DNA of 52,149 nucleotides from Gammaproteobacteria bacterium. Its GTDB lineage: Bacteria > Pseudomonadota > Gammaproteobacteria > UBA6429 > Thiohalophilaceae. A program made the position numbers and the translations under genes. The stretch spans positions 1-52,149 of the forward strand of contig JASBTR010000115.1 in assembly GCA_030148325.1 (NCBI GenBank), read 5' to 3'. How positions within the stretch are numbered: position 1 is the stretch's first letter; every line of letters begins with the position of its first letter. This document shows, one piece after another, positions 4,326 through 15,312 of the stretch. A model generated the notes under the pieces. That model did no database searches. It was not told where the DNA came from and saw only the letters and a list, made by a program, of their open reading frames with translations.

Positions 4326-6095
4326 ATGTCAGCCGTACCCCGCAAGAAAATTCGCCTTGGCGATCTGCTGGTCGCCAACCAGCTCATCAGTGAAGAACAG
4401 CTGATGCAGGCGCTGGCCGATCAGAAAAAAACCGGCAAAAAACTCGGCCGCACCCTGATCGACAACGGCCTGGTCTCCGAACAGCAGATGCTGGAACTGC
4501 TCTCCGCCCAGCTCAAACTGCCGTTTATCGATCTCCGGCAGTTCAACTACGAAGCCGACACTATTCGCCTGATTCCGGAAACCATGGCCCGGCGTTACCG
4601 CGCCATTGCATTGAAGGAAAACCCTGACGGCTCTTTGCTGGTGGGCATGAGCGATCCGACCGACATTTTTGCCTACGATGAGCTGAGCAAGCGGCTGAAG
4701 CGCCCTATTCACCTGGCGGTGGCGCGGGAAGCCGAAATCCTGGAAACCATTGACAGCATCTACCGGCGCACGGCCGATATCAGCAATCTGGCCGAACAGC
4801 TGGGTGAGGAACTGAGTGAGACTGACATCGATCTCAACCAGATGCTGCAGAACGAGGATCTGGCCAATGCCCCGGTGGTTCGCCTGCTACAAACCATTTT
4901 TGAAGACGCGATACAGATTGGCGCCTCCGATATTCACATCGAGCCAGACGAAAGTGTATTACGCATCCGCCAGCGCGTGGACGGCGTACTACAGGAACAG
5001 GTAATGAATGAGCGCCGCATCGCTACTGCCGTGGTCTCACGCCTAAAGCTCATGGCCGGCCTGAATATTTCCGAGCGCCGCATTCCCCAGGATGGCCGTT
5101 TCAATATTCGTGTACGCGATCATTCCATAGACGTGCGCCTGTCCACCATGCCCATCCAGGATGGCGAATCCGTGGTTATGCGCCTGCTGGATCAGTCCGG
5201 TAACCGACTGGATCTGGAACAACTGGGCATGGAAGGCAGTCTGCTGGAAAATTTTCGCAATCAGGTTCGCCGCCCCTATGGCATGGTGCTGGTTACCGGC
5301 CCCACCGGCAGCGGCAAAACCACCACCCTCTATGCCGCACTCTCAGAACTGAACAAGTCGAGCAAGAAAATCATCACCGTGGAAGATCCGGTGGAATACC
5401 GCCTGCCGCGCATCAACCAGGTGCAGGTCAATGCCCAGATCGATCTTACCTTCGCCCGGGTGCTGCGCACCGCCCTGCGTCAGGATCCGGACATCGTACT
5501 GGTCGGCGAAATGCGTGATCAGGAAACCGCCCAGATCGGCCTGCGCGCCGCCATCACCGGCCACATGGTGCTCTCCACCCTGCATACCAACAACGCCATC
5601 GCCAGCGTCAGCCGCCTGCTGGACATGGGCGCCGAAGGCTACATGGTCGCCTCCGCCCTGCGCGCTGTGCTGGCACAGCGGCTGGTGCGCAAACTCTGTG
5701 ACAGCTGCAAAACACCCTATTCCCCGGTTGCGGGTGAGCAGGCTCTGATTCGCAATCTTATTGGCCAGGACATGAAAGGCGTACCCTTCTATCAGCCGCG
5801 CGGCTGTCCGCACTGCAATAATACCGGCTACCGTGGCCGGATCGGGGTGTTCGAGTTTCTGGAAATGGACGAAGAGCTGGCCGACACGCTGCTGCGTAAC
5901 GACGGCGTCGCCTTCGCCAGAAAAGCGCGCGCCAGCAAAAACTTTCGTTCCTTTGCCCTGCACGCCATCGACCACGCCTGGCAGGGCATAACCAGCCTGG
6001 AAGAAGTGGTGCGGGTAACCGGCGCCACCGAAGAACTTGAAACCACTCCCCATATGGCGCCCACAGTGCCCAGCCAGAATTCCAGCCACGGATAG
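4326..6095 (+). CDS. mshE: MSHA pilus extension ATPase MshE
   Basis: This GspE/PilB-type hexameric ATPase of 589 residues powers pilus assembly from the cytoplasmic face. Residues about 8-65 form an MshEN domain (RLGDLLVANQLISEEQL, ADQ, KKLGRTLIDNG), the known cyclic-di-GMP-binding module. Walker A GPTGSGKTT is near residue 325, followed by the Asp box (VEDPVEYRLP) and Walker B region (ILVGEMRDQETA-like). The Cys pairs CDSC (about 458) and CPHC (about 493) form the zinc site. A GAGG ribosome site precedes the ATG. It is the first gene of the pilus operon here. The mshH-mshN half of the classic operon is not upstream. Confidence 0.92.
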   Translation: MSAVPRKKIRLGDLLVANQLISEEQLMQALADQKKTGKKLGRTLIDNGLVSEQQMLELLSAQLKLPFIDLRQFNYEADTIRLIPETMARRYRAIALKENPDGSLLVGMSDPTDIFAYDELSKRLKRPIHLAVAREAEILETIDSIYRRTADISNLAEQLGEELSETDIDLNQMLQNEDLANAPVVRLLQTIFEDAIQIGASDIHIEPDESVLRIRQRVDGVLQEQVMNERRIATAVVSRLKLMAGLNISERRIPQDGRFNIRVRDHSIDVRLSTMPIQDGESVVMRLLDQSGNRLDLEQLGMEGSLLENFRNQVRRPYGMVLVTGPTGSGKTTTLYAALSELNKSSKKIITVEDPVEYRLPRINQVQVNAQIDLTFARVLRTALRQDPDIVLVGEMRDQETAQIGLRAAITGHMVLSTLHTNNAIASVSRLLDMGAEGYMVASALRAVLAQRLVRKLCDSCKTPYSPVAGEQALIRNLIGQDMKGVPFYQPRGCPHCNNTGYRGRIGVFEFLEMDEELADTLLRNDGVAFARKARASKNFRSFALHAIDHAWQGITSLEEVVRVTGATEELETTPHMAPTVPSQNSSHG

Positions 6096-6104
6096 TTTAG
6101 CCAC

Positions 6105-7325
6105 ATGCCTTTTTTTCAGTACCGAGGACGCAATGCACAGGGCGGCGCTGTTAGCGGTGATGTCGAAGCGGCTTCAGCCAGCGCGGTCGCCACCCAGCTG
6201 TTCAATACTGGCATCACCCCGGTATCCATTGAAGAGGTGCAAAAATCAACCGGCTTCGATGATCTGCTCTACCAGTGGCGGCTGCGTAAAAAACCGGAAC
6301 TGGATGATCTTATTCTTTTTGCGCGCCAGTTCTATACCCTGATGCGCGCCGGCGTCCCCATCATCCGCGCCATCAACGGCCTGGCTGACACGACCCGCAA
6401 CCTGATGCTCAAAGAAGCCCTGAAGGATGTGCTGGGTGAACTGGAAGCCGGGCACGAACTTTCCACCGCCATGACCCAGCATCCGAAAATCTTTTCCTCC
6501 CTGTTCATCAACATGGTGCGCGTAGGAGAAAACAGTGGTCGGCTGGACGAGGTGTTCCTGCAGATAGCCGGCTATCTGGAACGGGAAAAAACCACCCGCG
6601 ATCAAATCAAGGCGGCCATGCGCTATCCCAGTTTCGTGGTCATCGCCGTAGCCGTAGCCATGTTCATCATAAATCTCTGGGTGATTCCAACCTTCGCCAG
6701 GGTCTTCAGCGGCTTTCATGCCGAGCTGCCTGTGCCGACGCAGATTCTGTTGATGGTGTCGGATTTCACCGTGGCTTACTGGATGCATATTTTCGCCGCC
6801 TTGTTTCTTGCCAGCCTGGTATTGCGTCATTACCTTAATACCAAAGACGGCCGTTATCGCTGGGACAAATATAAACTGTGCATCCCCGTTATCGGCAGCA
6901 TTCTGCTGCGCGCCACATTGTCACGCTTTGCCCGCGCCTTCGCCATGTCGATTCGCTCAGGCGTACCACTGGTGCAGGCACTGATGCTGGTCTCACGCGC
7001 AGTCGACAACAGCTTTATCGGCCAGGCCGTGCTGGAGATGCGCAACGGTGTCGAACGCGGTGATACGCTGACCCGCACTACCGCAGCCAGCAAGATGTTC
7101 ACGCCACTGGTGCTACAGATGATGGCGGTCGGCGAGGAAACCGGCTCGGTGGATGACATGCTGGAACAGGTGTCGGACTTCTATGATCGGGAAGTGGACT
7201 ACGATCTCAAAAGCCTGACCTCAAAAATCGAACCCATCCTGATCGTCGTCATCGCCGCGATGGTGCTGGTGCTGGCCCTGGGCGTTTTCCTGCCCATGTG
7301 GGACCTGATCAATGTGGCGAAATAA
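6105..7325 (+). CDS. mshG: MSHA pilus inner-membrane platform protein MshG
   Basis: This GspF/PilC-family integral membrane protein of 406 residues anchors the assembly ATPase to the pilus base. It has the family's duplicated domain: FARQFYTLMRAGVPIIRAI near residue 75 and FARAFAMSIRSGVPLVQAL near residue 270. Each is followed by the typical helical segment (ENSGRLDEV and EETGSVDDML). Three hydrophobic membrane spans are visible (about 180-205, 220-240 and 375-400). It follows mshE by 9 bp, and its last 14 bp overlap the start of the next prepilin gene. Confidence 0.93.
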   Translation: MPFFQYRGRNAQGGAVSGDVEAASASAVATQLFNTGITPVSIEEVQKSTGFDDLLYQWRLRKKPELDDLILFARQFYTLMRAGVPIIRAINGLADTTRNLMLKEALKDVLGELEAGHELSTAMTQHPKIFSSLFINMVRVGENSGRLDEVFLQIAGYLEREKTTRDQIKAAMRYPSFVVIAVAVAMFIINLWVIPTFARVFSGFHAELPVPTQILLMVSDFTVAYWMHIFAALFLASLVLRHYLNTKDGRYRWDKYKLCIPVIGSILLRATLSRFARAFAMSIRSGVPLVQALMLVSRAVDNSFIGQAVLEMRNGVERGDTLTRTTAASKMFTPLVLQMMAVGEETGSVDDMLEQVSDFYDREVDYDLKSLTSKIEPILIVVIAAMVLVLALGVFLPMWDLINVAK

Positions 7326-7980
7326 CAGGGACGAGGGACGGGTGGCGAGGGACGAGGAAAACCCTCTTGCCTGTTTGCGTGTTTTTGCCACAAGGCCGGT
7401 TTGTGTTGCCGAGTCGGAAAAATGTGCATCACCGGCTGCACACACCACCTCGTCCCTCGGCCCTCGCCACTCGTCCCTTATCAATGCCTCCGGTTTTACT
7501 CTGCTGGAGCTGGTGGTGGTGATCATCATTATTTCCATTTTGGGCCTGTTCGCACTGGATCGCTTCTGGTCTCTGCGGGTCGCGGCTGAGCGCGCCGCCG
7601 TGCAGCAGGTGGTTGGCAATATCCGCAGCGCCCTGGGTCTGGAAGTGGCCCGCTATGCCCTCGAAAACCGGCTGGCCGAGCTGCCCCGGCTTGACGGCAG
7701 CAACCCCATGCCGCTGCTGGCACAGACACCCCGCAGCTATCTGGGTGAACTCTCGCCCGACCCGGCTACCCTTGCCGAAGGAAGCTGGTACTTCGATCCG
7801 ACCACAAAGACGCTCAACTACCGTGTAACTTATCGTGAAAATTTTTCCAGCCCTACCGATGAATCAGCCTGGATCCGCTGGCGAATCACGCTTATTTACC
7901 GTGATCGCAACCACAACCAGCGTTTTGATCCCGGGCTGGACGCGATCAGCGGCCTTGATCTTGTCCGCCTCGCGCATTAG
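7312..7980 (+). CDS. MSHA prepilin-like protein (MshF/MshB position), repeat-encoded leader
   Basis: The 222-residue product has a prepilin signature, G61|FTLLELVVVIIIISILG, which fixes the predicted prepilin-peptidase site after an unusually long 61-residue leader. The leader contains RDEGRVARDEE and SSLGPRHSSL, the translations of the two arms of an inverted repeat at 7326-7480. The ATG at 7312 overlaps the end of mshG by 14 bp. There is no ATG, GTG or TTG between the right arm and the pilin helix in this frame, so at least the right arm must be translated. The mature part of about 160 residues is probably a minor pilin or biogenesis factor. By gene order it is mshF or mshB, which I cannot distinguish. 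Confidence 0.78.
   Translation: MWRNNRDEGRVARDEENPLACLRVFATRPVCVAESEKCASPAAHTTSSLGPRHSSLINASGFTLLELVVVIIIISILGLFALDRFWSLRVAAERAAVQQVVGNIRSALGLEVARYALENRLAELPRLDGSNPMPLLAQTPRSYLGELSPDPATLAEGSWYFDPTTKTLNYRVTYRENFSSPTDESAWIRWRITLIYRDRNHNQRFDPGLDAISGLDLVRLAH
7326..7480. repeat. Leader inverted repeat, msh copy 1
   Basis: The left arm (7326-7361) is made of GGACGAG-like units. The right arm (about 7449-7479) is CTCGTCC-like, imperfectly complementary, with a unique core of about 85 bp. It starts immediately after the mshG stop and ends about 12 bp before the codons of the pilin cleavage site. It lies inside the leader of the gene at 7312. Confidence 0.85.
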
Positions 7981-8179: not shown

Positions 8180-8683
8180 ATGAAAAGCAGACAAGCGGGT
8201 TTTACCCTTATTGAACTGGTTGTGGTGATCCTGATTCTGGGCATTCTCGCCGCTACCGCCCTGCCACGGTTTTTAAATGTTAACACCCAGGCTCATGAGG
8301 CTGCTGTTGCCGGTGCCGGCGGTGGCTTTGGCGCCGGTGTCGCCCTGGCGCGAGCCGCCTGGATTGCCGCAGGCAACACCGCTGCCGCAGATAATCTGGC
8401 CAGTTTTGGCGCTGCAAATATCGATACAAATGCTGCCGGCTGGCCTGTTGGTACAGACGACTCAAACTCATTGAGCACGGCTGCAGATTGCGTCCTGCTC
8501 TGGAACAATCTAATGCAAAACCCGCCAACCGTTTCAGAAACCGCATCAGCAGCAGACTACTATGCAACACTGACCGGCACGGCATGCACCTTTAGATATG
8601 AACCTGATGGGTCAACATTTATGAGTATTGTTTACGATTCGGCAAATGGCACAGTAACGGTTGATAGTGATAGTAGTTCATAA
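8180..8683 (+). CDS. MSHA-type major pilin candidate
   Basis: This type IV prepilin has a short, normal leader ([23 protein letters not shown]) and a 167-residue precursor. The helix continues [17 protein letters not shown], with Glu5 of the mature protein present. Two C-terminal cysteines (ADCVLLW and GTACTFR) could close the D-loop. AGGAG lies 8 bp before the ATG, the best ribosome site of the cluster, so this start is preferred over the open frame upstream at 8093. It is preceded by about 200 bp of non-coding DNA and followed by a hairpin terminator, both consistent with a highly expressed major subunit. It could be mshA or mshB by sequence alone. Confidence 0.85.
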
Positions 8684-8707
8684 ATAACTCGATTTTTCTC
8701 GATAATG

Positions 8708-8734
8708 AAAACGCCGGTTTAATCCGGCGTTTTC
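8708..8734 (+). terminator. Hairpin terminator after the major pilin gene
   Basis: The stem AAAACGCCGG / CCGGCGTTTT has a short TTTAAT loop and ends in Ts. It lies between the pilin stop (8683) and mshC (8746), inside the operon. It may act as a partial terminator that keeps minor pilin expression below that of the major pilin. Confidence 0.75.
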
Positions 8735-8745
8735 GATTACCCGCG

Positions 8746-9180
8746 ATGAAACGATCATTAAAACAGACATCAGGCTTCACCCTGGTCGAACTGGTGGTGG
8801 TGGTTTTACTGATTGGCATCATCGGCTTTGTCGCCGGACCACGGTTTGTCAAAACCGACGCCTTTGCGGAACGCCGCGCCGCCGATGAAGTTCTCTCCGC
8901 CCTGCGCTTTACGCAACAGATGGCCATGGCCCGCGGCGGCGGCATCCAGCTGGTGCTTACCGGCAACCGTTACACGGTTGAAGAAACCGACGGCACGCCG
9001 CTGCAAAGTCCGGATCGTTCCGGCGCCTATAGCAAAAATCTTCCCAATGGCGTCACCGCCAGCGCCATCACTCTCGCCTTCGACGGCCTCGGCCAGCCCG
9101 TGCCCAATGCGGATGTGAACATCGCGATTGGTAGTCTTTCAATTACTGTTGAAGCGGATACCGGTTATGCGCATTATTAA
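8746..9180 (+). CDS. MSHA minor prepilin MshC-like
   Basis: This 144-residue type IV prepilin has a normal leader, MKRSLKQTSG|FTLVELVVVVLLIGIIG. The mature region includes FVKTDAFAERRAADEVLSALRFTQQMAMARGG, a GspH/MshC-like arrangement after the helix, and ends in beta-strand-rich sequence. No clear Shine-Dalgarno is visible and the ATG lies 11 bp after the terminator hairpin. Unlike its downstream neighbours it has no repeat in the leader. Its end overlaps the next start by 14 bp. Confidence 0.78.
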   Translation: MKRSLKQTSGFTLVELVVVVLLIGIIGFVAGPRFVKTDAFAERRAADEVLSALRFTQQMAMARGGGIQLVLTGNRYTVEETDGTPLQSPDRSGAYSKNLPNGVTASAITLAFDGLGQPVPNADVNIAIGSLSITVEADTGYAHY

Positions 9181-9943
9181 AAGGGACGAGAGACGAGGGA
9201 CGAGGGACGAGGAAAGGCGAGTTGCCCTGACTCCTGGCGTAACCGCGAGACAGGTGCGTTTCAGCAATCAGAAAGAAACCTGTCTGCCGAAAACCTGCAC
9301 CCGATTTTCCTCGTCCCTCGTCCCTCGCCACTCGTCCCTCAGGGTGACGGGCGTCACCCTGATCGAGATGGTGATCTTCATCGTTATCGTCGGCATTGCC
9401 GTCACTGCAGTAATGACGGTTTATATTAACATCGGCCGCACCGGCGCCGATCCCATGGTTCGCATTCGCGGCATCGAACTGGGCCAGTCTGTGCTCGAGG
9501 AAATCCTGCTCAAGGCCTACGATAACAGCACGCCGCTGGGTGGCGGTTGTGTACAGTTTAGCTCCGGCAGCCGTTGCAACAGCGGTCCTTCGGCCAGCGC
9601 ACAGTCAACAGCCGGTTTCGGCAGTGACGGTGAGACCCGCGCCACATTCAATGATGTCGATGACTATCACGATATAGCCTACTGCGGCGCTAATGTCAGC
9701 GCCGCTGATGCCGCCTGCAGCGCCGCCTGTCAGCCGCTGCTGGATGAGACCGGTAATGACATTTCCGCTAACTATGCCGGTTATGCTGTCTGCATTCAGG
9801 TTAGTTTTGCCGGGACCGAAGTTAACAACACTTCTCCGGCCGATGTCGGCGTACTGGCCAATGATGGCAAGCGCATCGACGTCATCATTACCGACCACCT
9901 TAACAGCCGCTATCTGCTTAGCGCCTACCGGTTGAATTTCTGA
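9167..9943 (+). CDS. MSHA minor prepilin MshD-like, repeat-encoded leader
   Basis: The cleavage motif TG62|VTLIEMVIFIVIVGIAV defines a 62-residue leader containing RRGTRDEERR and SSLVPRHSSL, encoded by the two arms of the repeat at 9183-9340. The mature part (about 195 residues) has a GspI/GspJ/MshD-like region (RIRGIELGQSVLEEILLKAYD) and several cysteines (GGGCVQ, CNSG, YCGANV, CSAACQ). The start at 9167 overlaps mshC. An ORF extension to 9128 lies wholly inside mshC and is rejected. A GTG just before the cleavage site could give a 3-residue leader, which seems too short. Confidence 0.78.
   Translation: MRIIKRDERRGTRDEERRVALTPGVTARQVRFSNQKETCLPKTCTRFSSSLVPRHSSLRVTGVTLIEMVIFIVIVGIAVTAVMTVYINIGRTGADPMVRIRGIELGQSVLEEILLKAYDNSTPLGGGCVQFSSGSRCNSGPSASAQSTAGFGSDGETRATFNDVDDYHDIAYCGANVSAADAACSAACQPLLDETGNDISANYAGYAVCIQVSFAGTEVNNTSPADVGVLANDGKRIDVIITDHLNSRYLLSAYRLNF
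9183..9340. repeat. Leader inverted repeat, msh copy 2
   Basis: The left arm (9183-9214) has four tandem 7-bp units of GGACGAG type. The right arm (about 9307-9340) has the matching CTCGTCC units. The core of about 90 bp is unlike that of copy 1. The element starts 2 bp after the mshC stop codon and ends just before the pilin helix of the MshD-like protein. Confidence 0.88.
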
Positions 9944-10851
9944 TGAACATCAAGGGACAATGGACAGGAAAGCCAGCGACGCGGTGTTCCTCGCCACTCG
10001 TCCCTCGTCCCTCGTCCCTGGCCACACGTGGTTTTACCTTGATCGAACTGGTCGTCGCCATCACCCTGCTGGGCATCGTCGGCAGCATGGCCGCAGTGTT
10101 TCTTGGCAATACCCTGGAAGGCTATTCGGCGCTCAACCGGCGTGATGATCTGCAGACCAGCCTGCGCATGGCGGTGGAGCGCATCAGTCGCGAGCTGCGC
10201 CATGCCCTGCCCAACAGCGTCTGCACCGATGATGGCAGCGGCTGTAACAATCCCGGCAGTATCGTTTATTTTATTCGCACCGTGGATGCCGGTGAATACC
10301 AGACCCGCACGGGAAATTATGCCGGCGGTCAGGCGCGCGCGCCCCTGCCCGTCGCTCCGGCTTCCACCAGCAGCTTCGATGTGCTCTCCGGCAACAGTCT
10401 CAATGCAGCCGCCGGACAGTGGGTGGTGGTGTACAACACCGACAATGTCGACATCTACAGCAGTGGCAGTCGCCGTCAACAAATCAATGCCATCACCAGC
10501 AAAGATACCGACGGTGTGGCGCCCAATGATGTCAGCGTAATCCAGTTTGCTTCGCCGGTGAACTTTCCCACCCATTCACCCAGCCGCCGCTTTCATGTGA
10601 TCGAAAACAACGCTGTTATTTTTTACCTGCAGGGAACCGATCTCTATCGCGCCCGCAGCAGCTTTGGCTCACCTGCCAGTGCTATCGCCGGAACGGAAAA
10701 ACTGTTGCTGCAGAATGTCAGCGCCTGCACCTTTACCTATGTGCCGGGATCGCTGTTACGTTCCGGCCTGCTGCGTATCGACATCAGCGTTAACAACGCT
10801 GTCGAATCCCTGCAAATGATTCACGAGGCCCAGGTTTATAATGCACCTTAA
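9943..10851 (+). CDS. MSHA minor prepilin MshO-like, repeat-encoded leader
   Basis: This 302-residue GspJ/MshO-like prepilin has its cleavage site at G30|[17 protein letters not shown]. The following SLRMAVERISRELRHALPNSV is typical of the GspJ family. The 30-residue leader includes SSPLVPRPSSLATR, encoded by the CTCGTCC-unit arm at 9989-10021. The ATG overlaps the mshD stop by one base (TGATG), and it is the only start codon in this frame before the cleavage site. The leader must therefore be translated through the repeat. Confidence 0.82.
   Translation: MNIKGQWTGKPATRCSSPLVPRPSSLATRGFTLIELVVAITLLGIVGSMAAVFLGNTLEGYSALNRRDDLQTSLRMAVERISRELRHALPNSVCTDDGSGCNNPGSIVYFIRTVDAGEYQTRTGNYAGGQARAPLPVAPASTSSFDVLSGNSLNAAAGQWVVVYNTDNVDIYSSGSRRQQINAITSKDTDGVAPNDVSVIQFASPVNFPTHSPSRRFHVIENNAVIFYLQGTDLYRARSSFGSPASAIAGTEKLLLQNVSACTFTYVPGSLLRSGLLRIDISVNNAVESLQMIHEAQVYNAP
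9953..10021. repeat. Leader repeat, msh copy 3 (left arm decayed)
   Basis: The right arm (9989-10021) has four clear 7-bp units (CTCGTCC type). The left arm survives only as a weak GGGACAATGGACAGG at 9953-9967. The spacer is shorter than in copies 1 and 2. It lies in the leader of the MshO-like gene. Confidence 0.75.
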
Positions 10852-11311
10852 AGTCAGTGACGAGGGGCGAGGGACGAGGGACGAGGAAGGGTTGACGATT
10901 TCCCTCGTCACTCGTCACTCGTCACTCGTCACTCTGCGTAAGCAGAACGGGTTTGCGATTGCGGCGGCGATTTTTCTGCTCGTGGTGCTGGCTTTGCTGG
11001 CTGCGGGAATGGTACAGATCGCATCCACCAGCCATACTTCCCTGAGTCAGGAATATACTTCGGCGCGCGCTTATTTTGCCGCGCGCAGCGGTCTGCAGTG
11101 GGGCATGTATCAGGCTATTTATGGTGGCAACGGTAATGCCACGATTACTTTTTCCAGTGGCGCACTGGCCGGAACCCAGGCAGCTGTCAGCAGCAGTAAT
11201 GCAAGTATTGACGGCGATATATTTTATCTTATCAAGGTCAGTGGCCGTTATGCCAGCAGCAGCGATGCGGAATACAGCCAGCGACGGCTACGCCTGAGGT
11301 TTAATCCCTGA
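10841..11311 (+). CDS. MSHA biogenesis protein MshP-like, repeat-encoded leader
   Basis: This 156-residue protein has a prepilin-like or PilX-like N-terminus, G37|FAIAAAIFLLVVLALLAAG. MVQIASTSHTSLSQEYTSARAYFAARSGLQWGMYQ follows, as expected for MshP. The 36-residue leader holds SDEGRGTRDEE and SLVTRHSSLV, translated from both arms of the repeat at 10856-10935. The start overlaps the mshO stop by 11 bp. An internal TTG (residue 18) would still leave the right arm inside the leader. Confidence 0.8.
   Translation: MHLKVSDEGRGTRDEEGLTISLVTRHSSLVTLRKQNGFAIAAAIFLLVVLALLAAGMVQIASTSHTSLSQEYTSARAYFAARSGLQWGMYQAIYGGNGNATITFSSGALAGTQAAVSSSNASIDGDIFYLIKVSGRYASSSDAEYSQRRLRLRFNP
10856..10935. repeat. Leader inverted repeat, msh copy 4
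   Basis: The left arm (10856-10890) has about four GGGACGA-type units. The right arm (10901-10934) has four near-identical CACTCGT units. The spacer is only about 10 bp, so this is a tight hairpin. It is the most homogeneous tandem array of the four and starts directly after the mshO stop. Confidence 0.88.
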
Positions 11312-14300
11312 TGTTGCGAAATCTGCTGATCCTGATCATACTTATAGTGCCCCTGTCCGGACAGGCGGCGCTGCTCATGCATCTGACCCTGGACAACACC
11401 CTTAATGATGCTTCCGGTAACGGCAATAACGGCAGTTTCCCCGGTGGCGGAAATAATCCGACCTATGCTCCGGCCGCTATCAATGAGGGACTCAACTTTG
11501 ATGGCAGCAATGATTACATCACCGCCCGCGACTTTGATCCTGGCAGTAGTTTTACTGTTTCACTCTGGGTGCGACCTGATTCATCTTCCGGCCTCGACGC
11601 CTATATCGAACATGTGCCCAATAGTCAGCGCAATGATTTTTTTCTTGGTTATGACAATACGGTAAATCAAATCGTAATCGAACTGGAAGACAACAACCAG
11701 TTTGAAGGCGGCGCCTGTGGCGATCCCAAATTCTGTACCGGCATTGCCCTGTCACCCAATCGCTGGCACCATCTGACAGTAGCCGTCACACCCACGACCC
11801 TGACGCTGTACATTGATGGCGAACAGGCCTATAACGTCAGTCACAGCACTACGGTTACGTTTAATCCCGGGATCTGGATGATGGGTGCAGACTCCGATTC
11901 CAACCCCAATACCCGTGCCGATAGCGACTACTTTGACGGCCGTCTTGATGACATTCGTGTTTACAATGAAGTGCTGGATCAGGATGACATCAGCGACCTG
12001 ATCGGTCTCAGGGGCTGGTGGAAACTGGACCAGTGCAGCCTGGCCTCACCCGGTGATGTCATTGACAGCAGCGGTAATGGTAATAATGGCAACCCGATAA
12101 ACGGCATCACGGTCGGCAGCGGACAGATTTGTAACGCCGGTAGTTTTGATGGCAGCAATGACTATATCGAGGTGGCCGATAATGCCTCATTGGATATTCC
12201 ACAAAATCTTACCGTGATGGCCTGGATTCGCCCCGATATAATTCCTGCAAGCGGTCTCAAATCCATAGTCTCCAAAGATGAAAATTATGAGTTCCACATT
12301 AACAGCGCCGGCCGTATTTACTGGTGGTGGCAAAACAGCAGTGGCGCCGTACGCAGCTTTACTTCCTCAACGACGCTTAGCGCCAACAACTGGTATCACG
12401 TCGCTATAGTCTATGAACCGGGCAGTCAGCGCATCCTTATCAATGGCGTGGTTCGTGGTAGTCGCAGCTATAACGAGACCCTGATCAACAACAACGATCC
12501 CCTGCACATCGGCGCCGATCAGGGTTTTGCCGGTCGCGAATTCGACGGCCTGATCGATGAAGTCAAAATTTTCGAACGCGCCCTGACCACCGAAGAAATC
12601 AATGACTATTACAATAGCCCTAATCCTGTTAGTCGCACCTGCCCCAATTGTAACGGTGGCGCCGCCAGCAGCATTATTCTTTCTACCGATCGAACAGAAA
12701 CCCTGGGCGGCCTAACCTTTACCGACGGTTCTCTTGCTGAATATGATCCCGTTACCAACACTGCCAGTCTGTTCTTTAATGAAAACCTGTTCGCCGGCGG
12801 CGAGGACATCGATGCTGCGCATGTGCTGGGCAATGGCAATATCATCCTTTCCACTACCACCAGCGCCACCCTGGGCGGCCTGACCTTTACCGATGGTTCA
12901 CTGGTCGAATACAACCCCGTCACCGACACCGCCACCCTGTTTTTCAATGAGAACCTGTTCTCCGCCAATGAAGACATTGATGCCGTTTATGTAACAAGCA
13001 ATGGCCATATTATTCTATCCACCACCGGTAGTGCGACGCTCGGTGGACTGAGCTTTAGCGACGGCTCTCTGGTTGACTATGATCCAGCCACCGATACCGC
13101 AAGCCTCTACTTTAGTGAATCAAATTTTTCCGGCGACGCCGATATTGATGGCGTGCATGTGCTGGACTCAGGCAACATCCTTATTTCCACCACCCGCACA
13201 GAGACCCTGGGCGGGCTGACTTTCAGCGATGGCTCCATTGCCGAGTACAATCCATCAACTGGTACAGCCACTCTTTATTTCAATGAAAACCTGTTTAGTG
13301 GCGGCGCGGATATCAATGCTATCACTATCCAGCCTGCATCAATCCAGCTCGATCACATCATGATTGAACATGATGGCAGCGCCCTGACCTGCGAACCTGA
13401 AAATATCACCATCCGCACCTGTGCCGATGCCGCCTGCACAACCCTCTACACCGGTGATGTCAGCGTCAGCCTGAGTCCGACTGGCTGGGTCGGCGGCGAC
13501 ACCCAGACCATTACCGGCGGCAGCGCCACCCTGCAACTGCGCCATACTGCCGCGGAAACTGTCAGCCTGGATGTGAGTAGTTCCGCACCCAACGCCAGTT
13601 TCTCGCCGGTCTGCCTGAACACGGCGGACAGCTCCAGTAGTTGTAGCCTGACCTTTTACGATAGCGGTTTTATCTACAGCATTCCGACCCAGATTTCCTG
13701 CGCCACCTCGAGCAATATTACCATCAGCGCCGTACGCCTTGACCAGACCAGCCAGCAGTGTGTGCCCTCCTTTGCCAATCGTAACGAGACTATCAATTTC
13801 TGGACCCGCTATGTGAACCCGAATCCGGTCACTATCAGCAATCGCGTAACTCTGAACAACGGCAGCAACGATTATATACTCGCCACATCCTCACCCGGCA
13901 CCGGCGTGCCGCTGAGCTTCGATGCCAATGGCCAGGCCACGGTAACCGTGACCTATCCCGATGCCGGGCAGTTAAGCTTAAACAGCAGTTTCAGCGGCAC
14001 TGGATTGGAGTCAGGTCTGAGCATGACGGGATCGGCAACTTATGTCACAAAGCCTGCAAAACTATATGTATATATAGATGATCCTGCTATTGATCCAGAT
14101 TCCACCTGTGACCCGATCATTGATTTATCCGGTACGTTATGCTCAAAATTCAAGATGGCCGGTGAACCATTTCAATCCCTTAAAGTACGCGCCGCCTGCG
14201 CAGACAATACCGTTACGCCCAATTTTATTCATAATAACATTAGCCTGACGCATACGCTGATTGCCCCTGGCGGGGGCACCCTGGGTGATTTAAGCCCACC

Positions 14301-15312
14301 CGGCACTAACATTGCTGACTCTGATTATGGTGAAGCAACCGTTAGCAACGCGAGTATTTCTGAGGTCGGCGTCTTTACGATCACAGCGGGATTAGGCGCT
14401 GACTATCTGGGTGAAACGGTCATTGGCGATGACACGGTGAATACCAGTGTTAACATCGGCCGCTTCTATCCGGCCAGTTTTACTGTCACACGCCAGCAGG
14501 GCTGTGATACCGATGGCTTCACCTATTCCGGCCAGCCTTTTGCGCTGGTAGGCATTACGGCTTTAAATAGCGCCGGCACTCAAACCTATAACTATGTCGG
14601 CAGCTTCGTACAGTCACCACTGATATCCGACCAACCAGCTAGCGGTGGCCTGTTTAGCAATAATGTCTTTAACAGTGCGGACTTTCTCACCGGCGGCTAC
14701 GGCACGCGCAATGATGTCACCTATACCTTTACCACCAGGGATACTGCACCGGCAACCTTTTCTCTGCTGGCCACGGATAACGATGGCGTCTCCGGGCTTT
14801 CTTCAGCAGTAGAAATCCGCAGCGGTCGCCTGAACATCGAAAATGCTTTTGGTTCCGAGCTGGATGATCTGGCTGTGCCCGTGACGGCACAATATTTCGA
14901 TGGCAGTGCTTATGTGACCAATGCGCAGGACAACAACTGTACGAGTATTTCCCTGAGCCTGTCCGATCCGGACACCGGGGATGCGCTTACCGCGGGAACC
15001 GGCGGCAACGCGGGCCAGACCTGCATCTGGGACGACGATGCTGAAAGTGGCAGCAGTAATTGCAGTGATGGCGGAATCCTGCCCGGCCCACTTTCAGAAC
15101 AGTTTGTCGAACCGCCGCTGGCCGGCAACTTTAATACCTGGCTGAAAGCCCCCGGCGCCGGTTATACCGGGAATATGGACATCAACGGCACGGCCCCGGT
15201 ATGGCTGCAATATGACTGGACGGGTTCAGGTTTAAGTAACCCGAGCGGACGCGCCAGCTTCGGCCTGTTCCGCGGGGATGATCGAATTATTTACTGGCGG
15301 GAACAGTTCTGA
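11311..15312 (+). CDS. MSHA biogenesis protein MshQ-like, LamG repeats, giant surface protein
   Basis: The 1333-residue protein has a signal peptide (about residues 1-19, ending SGQAA). Two LamG/concanavalin-like domains follow (about 20-230 and 235-440), each with MHLTLDN or WKLDQCS starts and FDGSNDYI motifs. Residues about 455-670 hold four tandem units of about 51 residues (TLGGLTFTDGSL ... LFFNENLF ... DIDA). The rest is cysteine-bearing, beta-rich and fits the DUF6701 C-terminus of MshQ proteins. The TGATG overlap with mshP suggests coupled translation. Its place and domains point to an extracellular or pilus-associated, possibly glycan-binding, protein. Confidence 0.85.
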   Translation: MLRNLLILIILIVPLSGQAALLMHLTLDNTLNDASGNGNNGSFPGGGNNPTYAPAAINEGLNFDGSNDYITARDFDPGSSFTVSLWVRPDSSSGLDAYIEHVPNSQRNDFFLGYDNTVNQIVIELEDNNQFEGGACGDPKFCTGIALSPNRWHHLTVAVTPTTLTLYIDGEQAYNVSHSTTVTFNPGIWMMGADSDSNPNTRADSDYFDGRLDDIRVYNEVLDQDDISDLIGLRGWWKLDQCSLASPGDVIDSSGNGNNGNPINGITVGSGQICNAGSFDGSNDYIEVADNASLDIPQNLTVMAWIRPDIIPASGLKSIVSKDENYEFHINSAGRIYWWWQNSSGAVRSFTSSTTLSANNWYHVAIVYEPGSQRILINGVVRGSRSYNETLINNNDPLHIGADQGFAGREFDGLIDEVKIFERALTTEEINDYYNSPNPVSRTCPNCNGGAASSIILSTDRTETLGGLTFTDGSLAEYDPVTNTASLFFNENLFAGGEDIDAAHVLGNGNIILSTTTSATLGGLTFTDGSLVEYNPVTDTATLFFNENLFSANEDIDAVYVTSNGHIILSTTGSATLGGLSFSDGSLVDYDPATDTASLYFSESNFSGDADIDGVHVLDSGNILISTTRTETLGGLTFSDGSIAEYNPSTGTATLYFNENLFSGGADINAITIQPASIQLDHIMIEHDGSALTCEPENITIRTCADAACTTLYTGDVSVSLSPTGWVGGDTQTITGGSATLQLRHTAAETVSLDVSSSAPNASFSPVCLNTADSSSSCSLTFYDSGFIYSIPTQISCATSSNITISAVRLDQTSQQCVPSFANRNETINFWTRYVNPNPVTISNRVTLNNGSNDYILATSSPGTGVPLSFDANGQATVTVTYPDAGQLSLNSSFSGTGLESGLSMTGSATYVTKPAKLYVYIDDPAIDPDSTCDPIIDLSGTLCSKFKMAGEPFQSLKVRAACADNTVTPNFIHNNISLTHTLIAPGGGTLGDLSPPGTNIADSDYGEATVSNASISEVGVFTITAGLGADYLGETVIGDDTVNTSVNIGRFYPASFTVTRQQGCDTDGFTYSGQPFALVGITALNSAGTQTYNYVGSFVQSPLISDQPASGGLFSNNVFNSADFLTGGYGTRNDVTYTFTTRDTAPATFSLLATDNDGVSGLSSAVEIRSGRLNIENAFGSELDDLAVPVTAQYFDGSAYVTNAQDNNCTSISLSLSDPDTGDALTAGTGGNAGQTCIWDDDAESGSSNCSDGGILPGPLSEQFVEPPLAGNFNTWLKAPGAGYTGNMDINGTAPVWLQYDWTGSGLSNPSGRASFGLFRGDDRIIYWREQF

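Follow-up and report, generated by a model that had tools for sequence, protein, structure and literature searches.

The window analysed here (the whole 52,149-nucleotide (nt) stretch, positions 1 to 52,149 of the forward strand of contig JASBTR010000115.1, assembly GCA_030148325.1, from a gammaproteobacterium of the Thiohalophilaceae) encodes an MSHA-type pilus operon with an MshE-type ATPase, a PilC/GspF-like protein, a prepilin series, and a large laminin-G/DUF6701 protein. The operon was classified from its gene order (ATPase, inner-membrane protein, minor pilins, large adhesin) and from an MshE-related c-di-GMP domain scoring above the cut-off; the individual msh gene names (mshB, mshD, mshO, mshP etc.) are putative and were assigned by position. 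The leaders of four minor prepilins, i.e. mshB-like, mshD, mshO, and mshP, contain inverted arrays of 7-bp units of the GGGACGA type. These are four copies of a hairpin element dispersed over the genome, rather than a pilin-specific feature. An earlier note on this DNA had described the 7-bp arrays in the pilin leaders and proposed that they could make single minor pilins phase-variable. The arrays are real, with 22 matches to GGGACGAGGGACGAGG in the whole window (up to three mismatches) against 0.34 in dinucleotide shuffles. Genes and element arms, all on the + strand, are as follows (leader lengths in amino acids, aa):

4326..7325, +, mshE-type ATPase and mshG-type inner-membrane genes (MshE-related c-di-GMP domain, PilC/GspF family; operon context)
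7312..7980, +, mshB-like minor prepilin (N_methyl motif, Pfam/TIGR02532); leader of about 61 aa from the ATG at 7312, which overlaps the mshG stop
7327..7357, +, element 1 (mshB), G-arm, 4 units, starting 2-3 nt past the mshG stop
7448..7478, +, element 1 (mshB), C-arm, 4 units; hairpin z -5.5
8180..9180, +, mshA-like and mshC-like prepilins with ordinary short leaders, without the element
9167..9943, +, mshD-like minor prepilin; 62-aa leader from the ATG at 9167, which overlaps the mshC stop
9182..9212, +, element 2 (mshD), G-arm, 4 units (array scan)
9309..9339 (array scan to 9340), +, element 2 (mshD), C-arm, 4 units; hairpin z -11.3
9943..10851, +, mshO-like minor prepilin; 30-aa leader from the ATG at 9943
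9953..9974, +, element 3 (mshO), degenerate G-arm, AGGGACAATGGACAGGAAAGCC, seen by eye but not in the array scan; hairpin z only -2.5
9989..10019, +, element 3 (mshO), C-arm, 4 units and one degenerate unit (array scan)
10841..11311, +, mshP-like minor pseudopilin (GspK-like); 37-aa leader from the ATG at 10841, which overlaps the mshO stop
10856..10886 (array scan 10859-10886), +, element 4 (mshP), G-arm, 4 units
10903..10933 (array scan 10904-10934), +, element 4 (mshP), C-arm, 4 units of the perfect GTGACGA variant; hairpin z -6.6
11311..15312, +, mshQ-like protein with laminin-G and DUF6701 domains (operon context)

The inverted arms of the element have the form A-(GGGACGA)x4-GGAAAACC, GTGACGA occurs among the unit variants, and the loop is unique to each site. 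Every recognisable msh arm holds about four units (range 4 to 4.6), the left arm of mshO being degenerate, and six of the seven clear msh arms are imperfect; the right arm of mshP (4.4 units) is the only perfect array. The "different unit counts" that had been attributed to the four genes were thus not found: the insert lengths vary among the msh genes with the size of their loops (94, 100, about 14, and 20 nt). Four genes do carry repeats as claimed, but only part of these lie at 9183-10935, where all had been placed, the arms of the fourth gene being outside it at 7327-7357 and 7448-7478.

Outside the pilus operon the element is widespread. There are 326 overlapping matches with up to two mismatches in the 2.99-Mb genome, a draft assembly like most of those compared (211 contigs, 5.45% estimated contamination), and genome-wide occurrence rules out an element restricted to pilus genes. 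It is not a property of all prepilins either, since the remaining prepilins of this genome have leaders of ordinary short length. We collected 78 arms from the window and 28 further stretches of its genome, which were picked around element matches and from which the true genome-wide density cannot be estimated. Exactly four units were counted in 45 of the 78 arms (tolerant count), four being the mode. All 32 complete pairs in the full set, which includes seven sister-genome stretches, run G-arm then C-arm, in no other order, with loops of 17-254 nt that have no mutual similarity except between orthologues. Of 47 arms, 34 are no more than 10 nt from a stop codon (overlaps counted), and 23 of 42 are equally close to a called start, the expectation from uniform placement in intergenic DNA being 6%. 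The gene caller was a simple one; for the three starts after C-arms that were tested, the alignment with homologues begins at residue 1. A three-unit pattern was present in 14 of 96 genomes in a sample of relatives, all of the same family, and in just one genome besides that of the window in a phylum sample of 398 genomes. Genes whose start lies no more than 20 nt past a C-arm (L061-L095) were also seen to lack Shine-Dalgarno-like motifs (0/29, versus 177/435 other genes), and at three junctions the element-free orthologues look poor in such motifs as well.

The earlier note held that all four msh genes are in frame and took this to suggest selection for frame, and on both points we agree. Each gene is open from an ATG that shares bases with the preceding stop codon (7312, 9167, 9943, and 10841). 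A stop-coupled ATG is open through the element at 4/4 msh junctions versus 0/26 element junctions elsewhere (Fisher 3.6e-5; the junction script scored two msh junctions as open, and mshO and mshP were judged open by direct reading). In mshO, the ATG at 9943 is the sole in-frame ATG, GTG or TTG 5' of the mature sequence, and the coupled ATG of mshB is in frame both in the window's genome (G000) and in the sister species G002. The ATG of mshP at -10 relative to the mshO stop is conserved, and it is in frame in all 11 species that have it; the distance from that stop to the cleavage-site Gly ranges from 13 to 316 nt across the 11 species, always congruent to 1 modulo 3, with leaders of 8 to 109 aa. 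Among the enlarged junctions of the four msh genes across species, the stop-coupled ATG is in frame in 17 of 21 (binomial 1e-5 at an expectation of 1/3; related species are non-independent, and shared ancestry is uncorrected). That the reading frame through the msh inserts is under selection is, from these comparisons, well supported.

The same leaders carry different inserts in other species. Among the four leaders of G002, mshB contains a CCTGTAGGTACGGC palindrome, mshD contains GATACAAG palindromes, and mshO contains GATACAG heptamers, as direct repeats with no clear hairpin; the GGGACGA element is retained only in mshP, with a degenerate left arm. A different palindrome is nested within the mshP element of G003, and yet another is found in mshO and mshP of G031. 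GGGACGA arms occur in mshD and mshP of G004 and G021, which belong to a different genus. The mshD orthologues in G031, G035, and G017 have short leaders, and insert-free relatives (e.g. G015, G034, and G035) have short leaders of the ancestral type. Unrelated inserts in equivalent leaders suggest, therefore, that the space from stop to Gly would accept any insert that keeps the frame, and the msh leaders look like a tolerant landing site for repeats. The GATACAG/GATACAA heptamer family of G002 shows a similar four-unit arm architecture (upstream region of L126; L039:4565-4605), and it sits at junctions where the window's genome has GGGACGA elements.

We propose, as the probable explanation, that a dispersed hairpin element fills the stretch from the upstream stop to the prepilin cleavage-site Gly, that it is translated and discarded with the leader, and that the insertions retained are those that keep the frame. 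These elements stand at tight gene junctions, their arms abutting stop and start codons. Because consecutive msh genes overlap, the only unconstrained DNA at their junctions would be that between the upstream stop and the Gly, and it is this stretch that the elements occupy. Initiation would occur at the ancestral, stop-overlapping ATG, translation would continue across the element, and the prepilin peptidase would cut off the entire leader, so that the mature pilin would be unchanged. Only frame-keeping insertions would survive, unless a new start arose below the insert. In studied systems the hydrophilic leader is removed by the prepilin peptidase (PMC4471445, PMC10191384), and inserts would be tolerated in leaders because of this cleavage. 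We infer that the element is translated, that the long leaders are cleaved, and that the inserts are mainly tolerated rather than regulatory. Repeat DNA would then enter coding sequence at the one spot whose peptide is discarded. The frame would be held across species and leader length and content left free to vary (8 to 109 aa in mshP), and these operons would offer a natural test of maximal prepilin leader length.

Several observations weigh against this explanation. The leaders of studied pilins are 6-26 aa long, with very long ones in a few systems (PMC4471445); the msh leaders of 30-62 aa exceed that range, and their cleavage is presumed. Reading through is not universal: at four enlarged junctions of other species (mshB of G017, mshD of G002, mshO of G036, and mshO of L060) the frame of the coupled ATG is lost and a lower start must be used. 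Possible alternative starts exist in the window's own genes, namely a TTG between the mshP arms and a GTG two codons before the Gly of mshD. If the mature pilins started below the element, the leaders would be untranslated and frame continuity would be due to chance. The four out-of-frame junctions, each with a TTG, GTG or ATG start below the insert, and the mshD GTG are in accord with such starts. At the mshD junction of G002 (L039:3861-3972) the ancestral ATG is out of frame behind the GATACAAG palindrome, and a TTG with an upstream GGGGA yields a normal 11-aa leader. We nevertheless consider chance continuity very unlikely, in view of mshO, which has no ATG, GTG or TTG below its element, the frame kept at most of the enlarged junctions, and the 26 element junctions elsewhere, none of which is open with an ATG. 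Since the frame is kept at 17/21 and the exceptions restart below the insert, the inserts are most likely translated, with frame loss repaired by relocation of the start, and are then very probably removed with the leader by the prepilin peptidase.

A role for the hairpins themselves was also weighed. Stem-loops in the junction RNA might tune translational coupling or mRNA decay, and hence minor-pilin stoichiometry. The hairpins predicted at mshB, mshD, and mshP are strong (z -5.5, -11.3, and -6.6; only -2.5 at mshO), four junctions of a single operon carry the element, and several palindrome families recur at equivalent leaders elsewhere. However, many relatives are insert-free at the msh junctions, the direct repeats in mshO of G002 form no clear hairpin, and the GGGACGA element also occupies other junctions genome-wide, so regulation by these hairpins seems to us quite unlikely. 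A combined version, in which MSHA minor prepilin leaders are a recurrent translated landing site where unrelated hairpins are acquired in frame, repeatedly because the leader peptide is discarded, and where the RNA hairpins set the dose of minor pilins, we also hold to be unlikely.

As contingency loci, the arms would change by slipped-strand gain or loss of a heptamer, shifting the frame and switching single minor pilins. They do lie within the reading frame, and the expected effect was reproduced by simulation: adding or removing one or two units truncates all four products (to 8-94 aa). The companion claim, that changes of three units keep the frame, needs a correction for mshP, where adding three GTGACGA units introduces an in-frame stop. 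Unit turnover does exist in the genome, which has arrays of 6-17 near-identical units (none in pilin leaders) and one orthologous array with 8 versus 9 units. Against this, the msh arms hold about four units in five species, one genome per species (G000; mshP in G002 and G003; mshD and mshP in G004 and G021). G000, G002, G003, and G017 share a four-unit C-arm at the intergenic L081 junction despite diverged unit sequence, and at the L083 junction there are four plus four units in both G000 and G017. Some of these L081 and L083 counts were read by eye, because the tolerant script may miss a degenerate unit or add the inner motif to the count as a fifth one. One-unit differences between orthologous arms are limited to a few intergenic arms. 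Two features typical of a contingency locus were not seen at the msh arms: unit number did not differ between related alleles (five species, and orthologous arms in four genomes), and in place of a long homogeneous tract there are 4 to 4.6 units, imperfect in most arms, compared with 13-24 units in the hmw1A switch of Haemophilus influenzae (PMC8262952). Moreover, other repeats replace the array at three of the four leaders in G002, and the element is dispersed beyond the pilus genes. With a unit number that stays at about four throughout the genome and in other species and genera, in short and mostly imperfect arms, slippage-driven phase variation of the msh pilins, as the earlier note had proposed, looks unlikely; rare switching could occur, but contingency loci we regard as highly improbable. 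A tandem repeat in coding sequence need not mean a phase-variation switch.

The closest known kind of repeat is the four-unit GGGNATC heptamer of Xanthomonas and Nostoc (Rehm et al. 2015, PMC4692102), whose authors judged phase variation unlikely. The two share the preference for four units, the inverted pairs, the conserved positions, and the rule that the G strand follows stop codons and the C strand precedes starts. They differ in the unit (GGGACGA with GTGACGA variants here), in the inner GGAAAACC motif, and in the four in-frame copies in prepilin leaders. A four-tract G-quadruplex is possible in 17 of 78 GGGACGA arms (22%) and in one of the seven msh arms, whereas 42-56% of the Xanthomonas GGGNATC repeats have at least four units and intact G-tracts (PMC4692102); G-quadruplex formation is therefore ruled out as a general explanation. 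By unit sequence and quadruplex capacity the present element is not a member of the GGGNATC class, though it appears to be a repeat of the same sort, and this little-studied class of four-unit heptamer repeats is linked to a new bacterial family.

Other known repeats are more distant. The TAACTGA repeats of marine Beggiatoaceae (PMC4679880) also have 7-nt units, in 2-6 copies, and stand mostly directly upstream of starts that lack a Shine-Dalgarno sequence, similar to the genes after GGGACGA C-arms; copies within genes are mostly near protein ends. They differ in the unit, in forming direct rather than paired inverted arrays, and in carrying stop codons when read forward. Rickettsia palindromic elements, as summarized from Ogata et al. 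in PMC10969869, provide a precedent for palindromic repeats in frame within protein-coding genes; according to that summary they form families of about 150 bp in unrelated genes, whereas the msh insert is confined to a leader that would be cleaved and has heptamer arms and unique loops. The hmw1A/hmw2A genes of H. influenzae resemble the msh genes in having 7-bp tandem units near a gene for a surface structure, but there about 13-24 identical units lie between two promoters and length variation is proven (PMC8262952), compared with the conserved number of about four imperfect units in msh. A miniature inverted-repeat transposable element with a shared interior is ruled out, the loops being non-homologous except between orthologues, and no consistent target-site duplication was seen in the element flanks inspected by eye. 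With a RAYT-driven REP/REPIN in view, Y1_Tnp (RAYT) transposase genes were looked for: there is no match in the element-bearing genomes G024 and G020, several element-free genomes have one, and of the six contigs with Y1_Tnp in the window's genome, five have no element among the matches listed. A known RNA family was rejected, as Rfam returned only sub-threshold microRNA models for the hairpin, and no published description of exactly this GGGACGA repeat was found in the literature searched.

Two further kinds of repeat were observed. Analogous to the GGGACGA element, inverted repeats with arms of about four 8-nt units of the ACGCAGAG type lie at 2409-2442/2536-2561 and 29040-29071/29165-29198 of the window, about 19 and 37 nt past called gene ends. 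A second class of heptamer repeats in the genome consists of long homogeneous arrays (7-17 units) whose inner flank is AAAGTATA-like or AAAGTCTA-like instead of GGAAAACC (L087:9192-9310, L069:8423-8471, L067:14419-14474, L089:1996-2058, L083:15269-15324, and L074:9628-9683), and these arrays are the better candidates for length variation.
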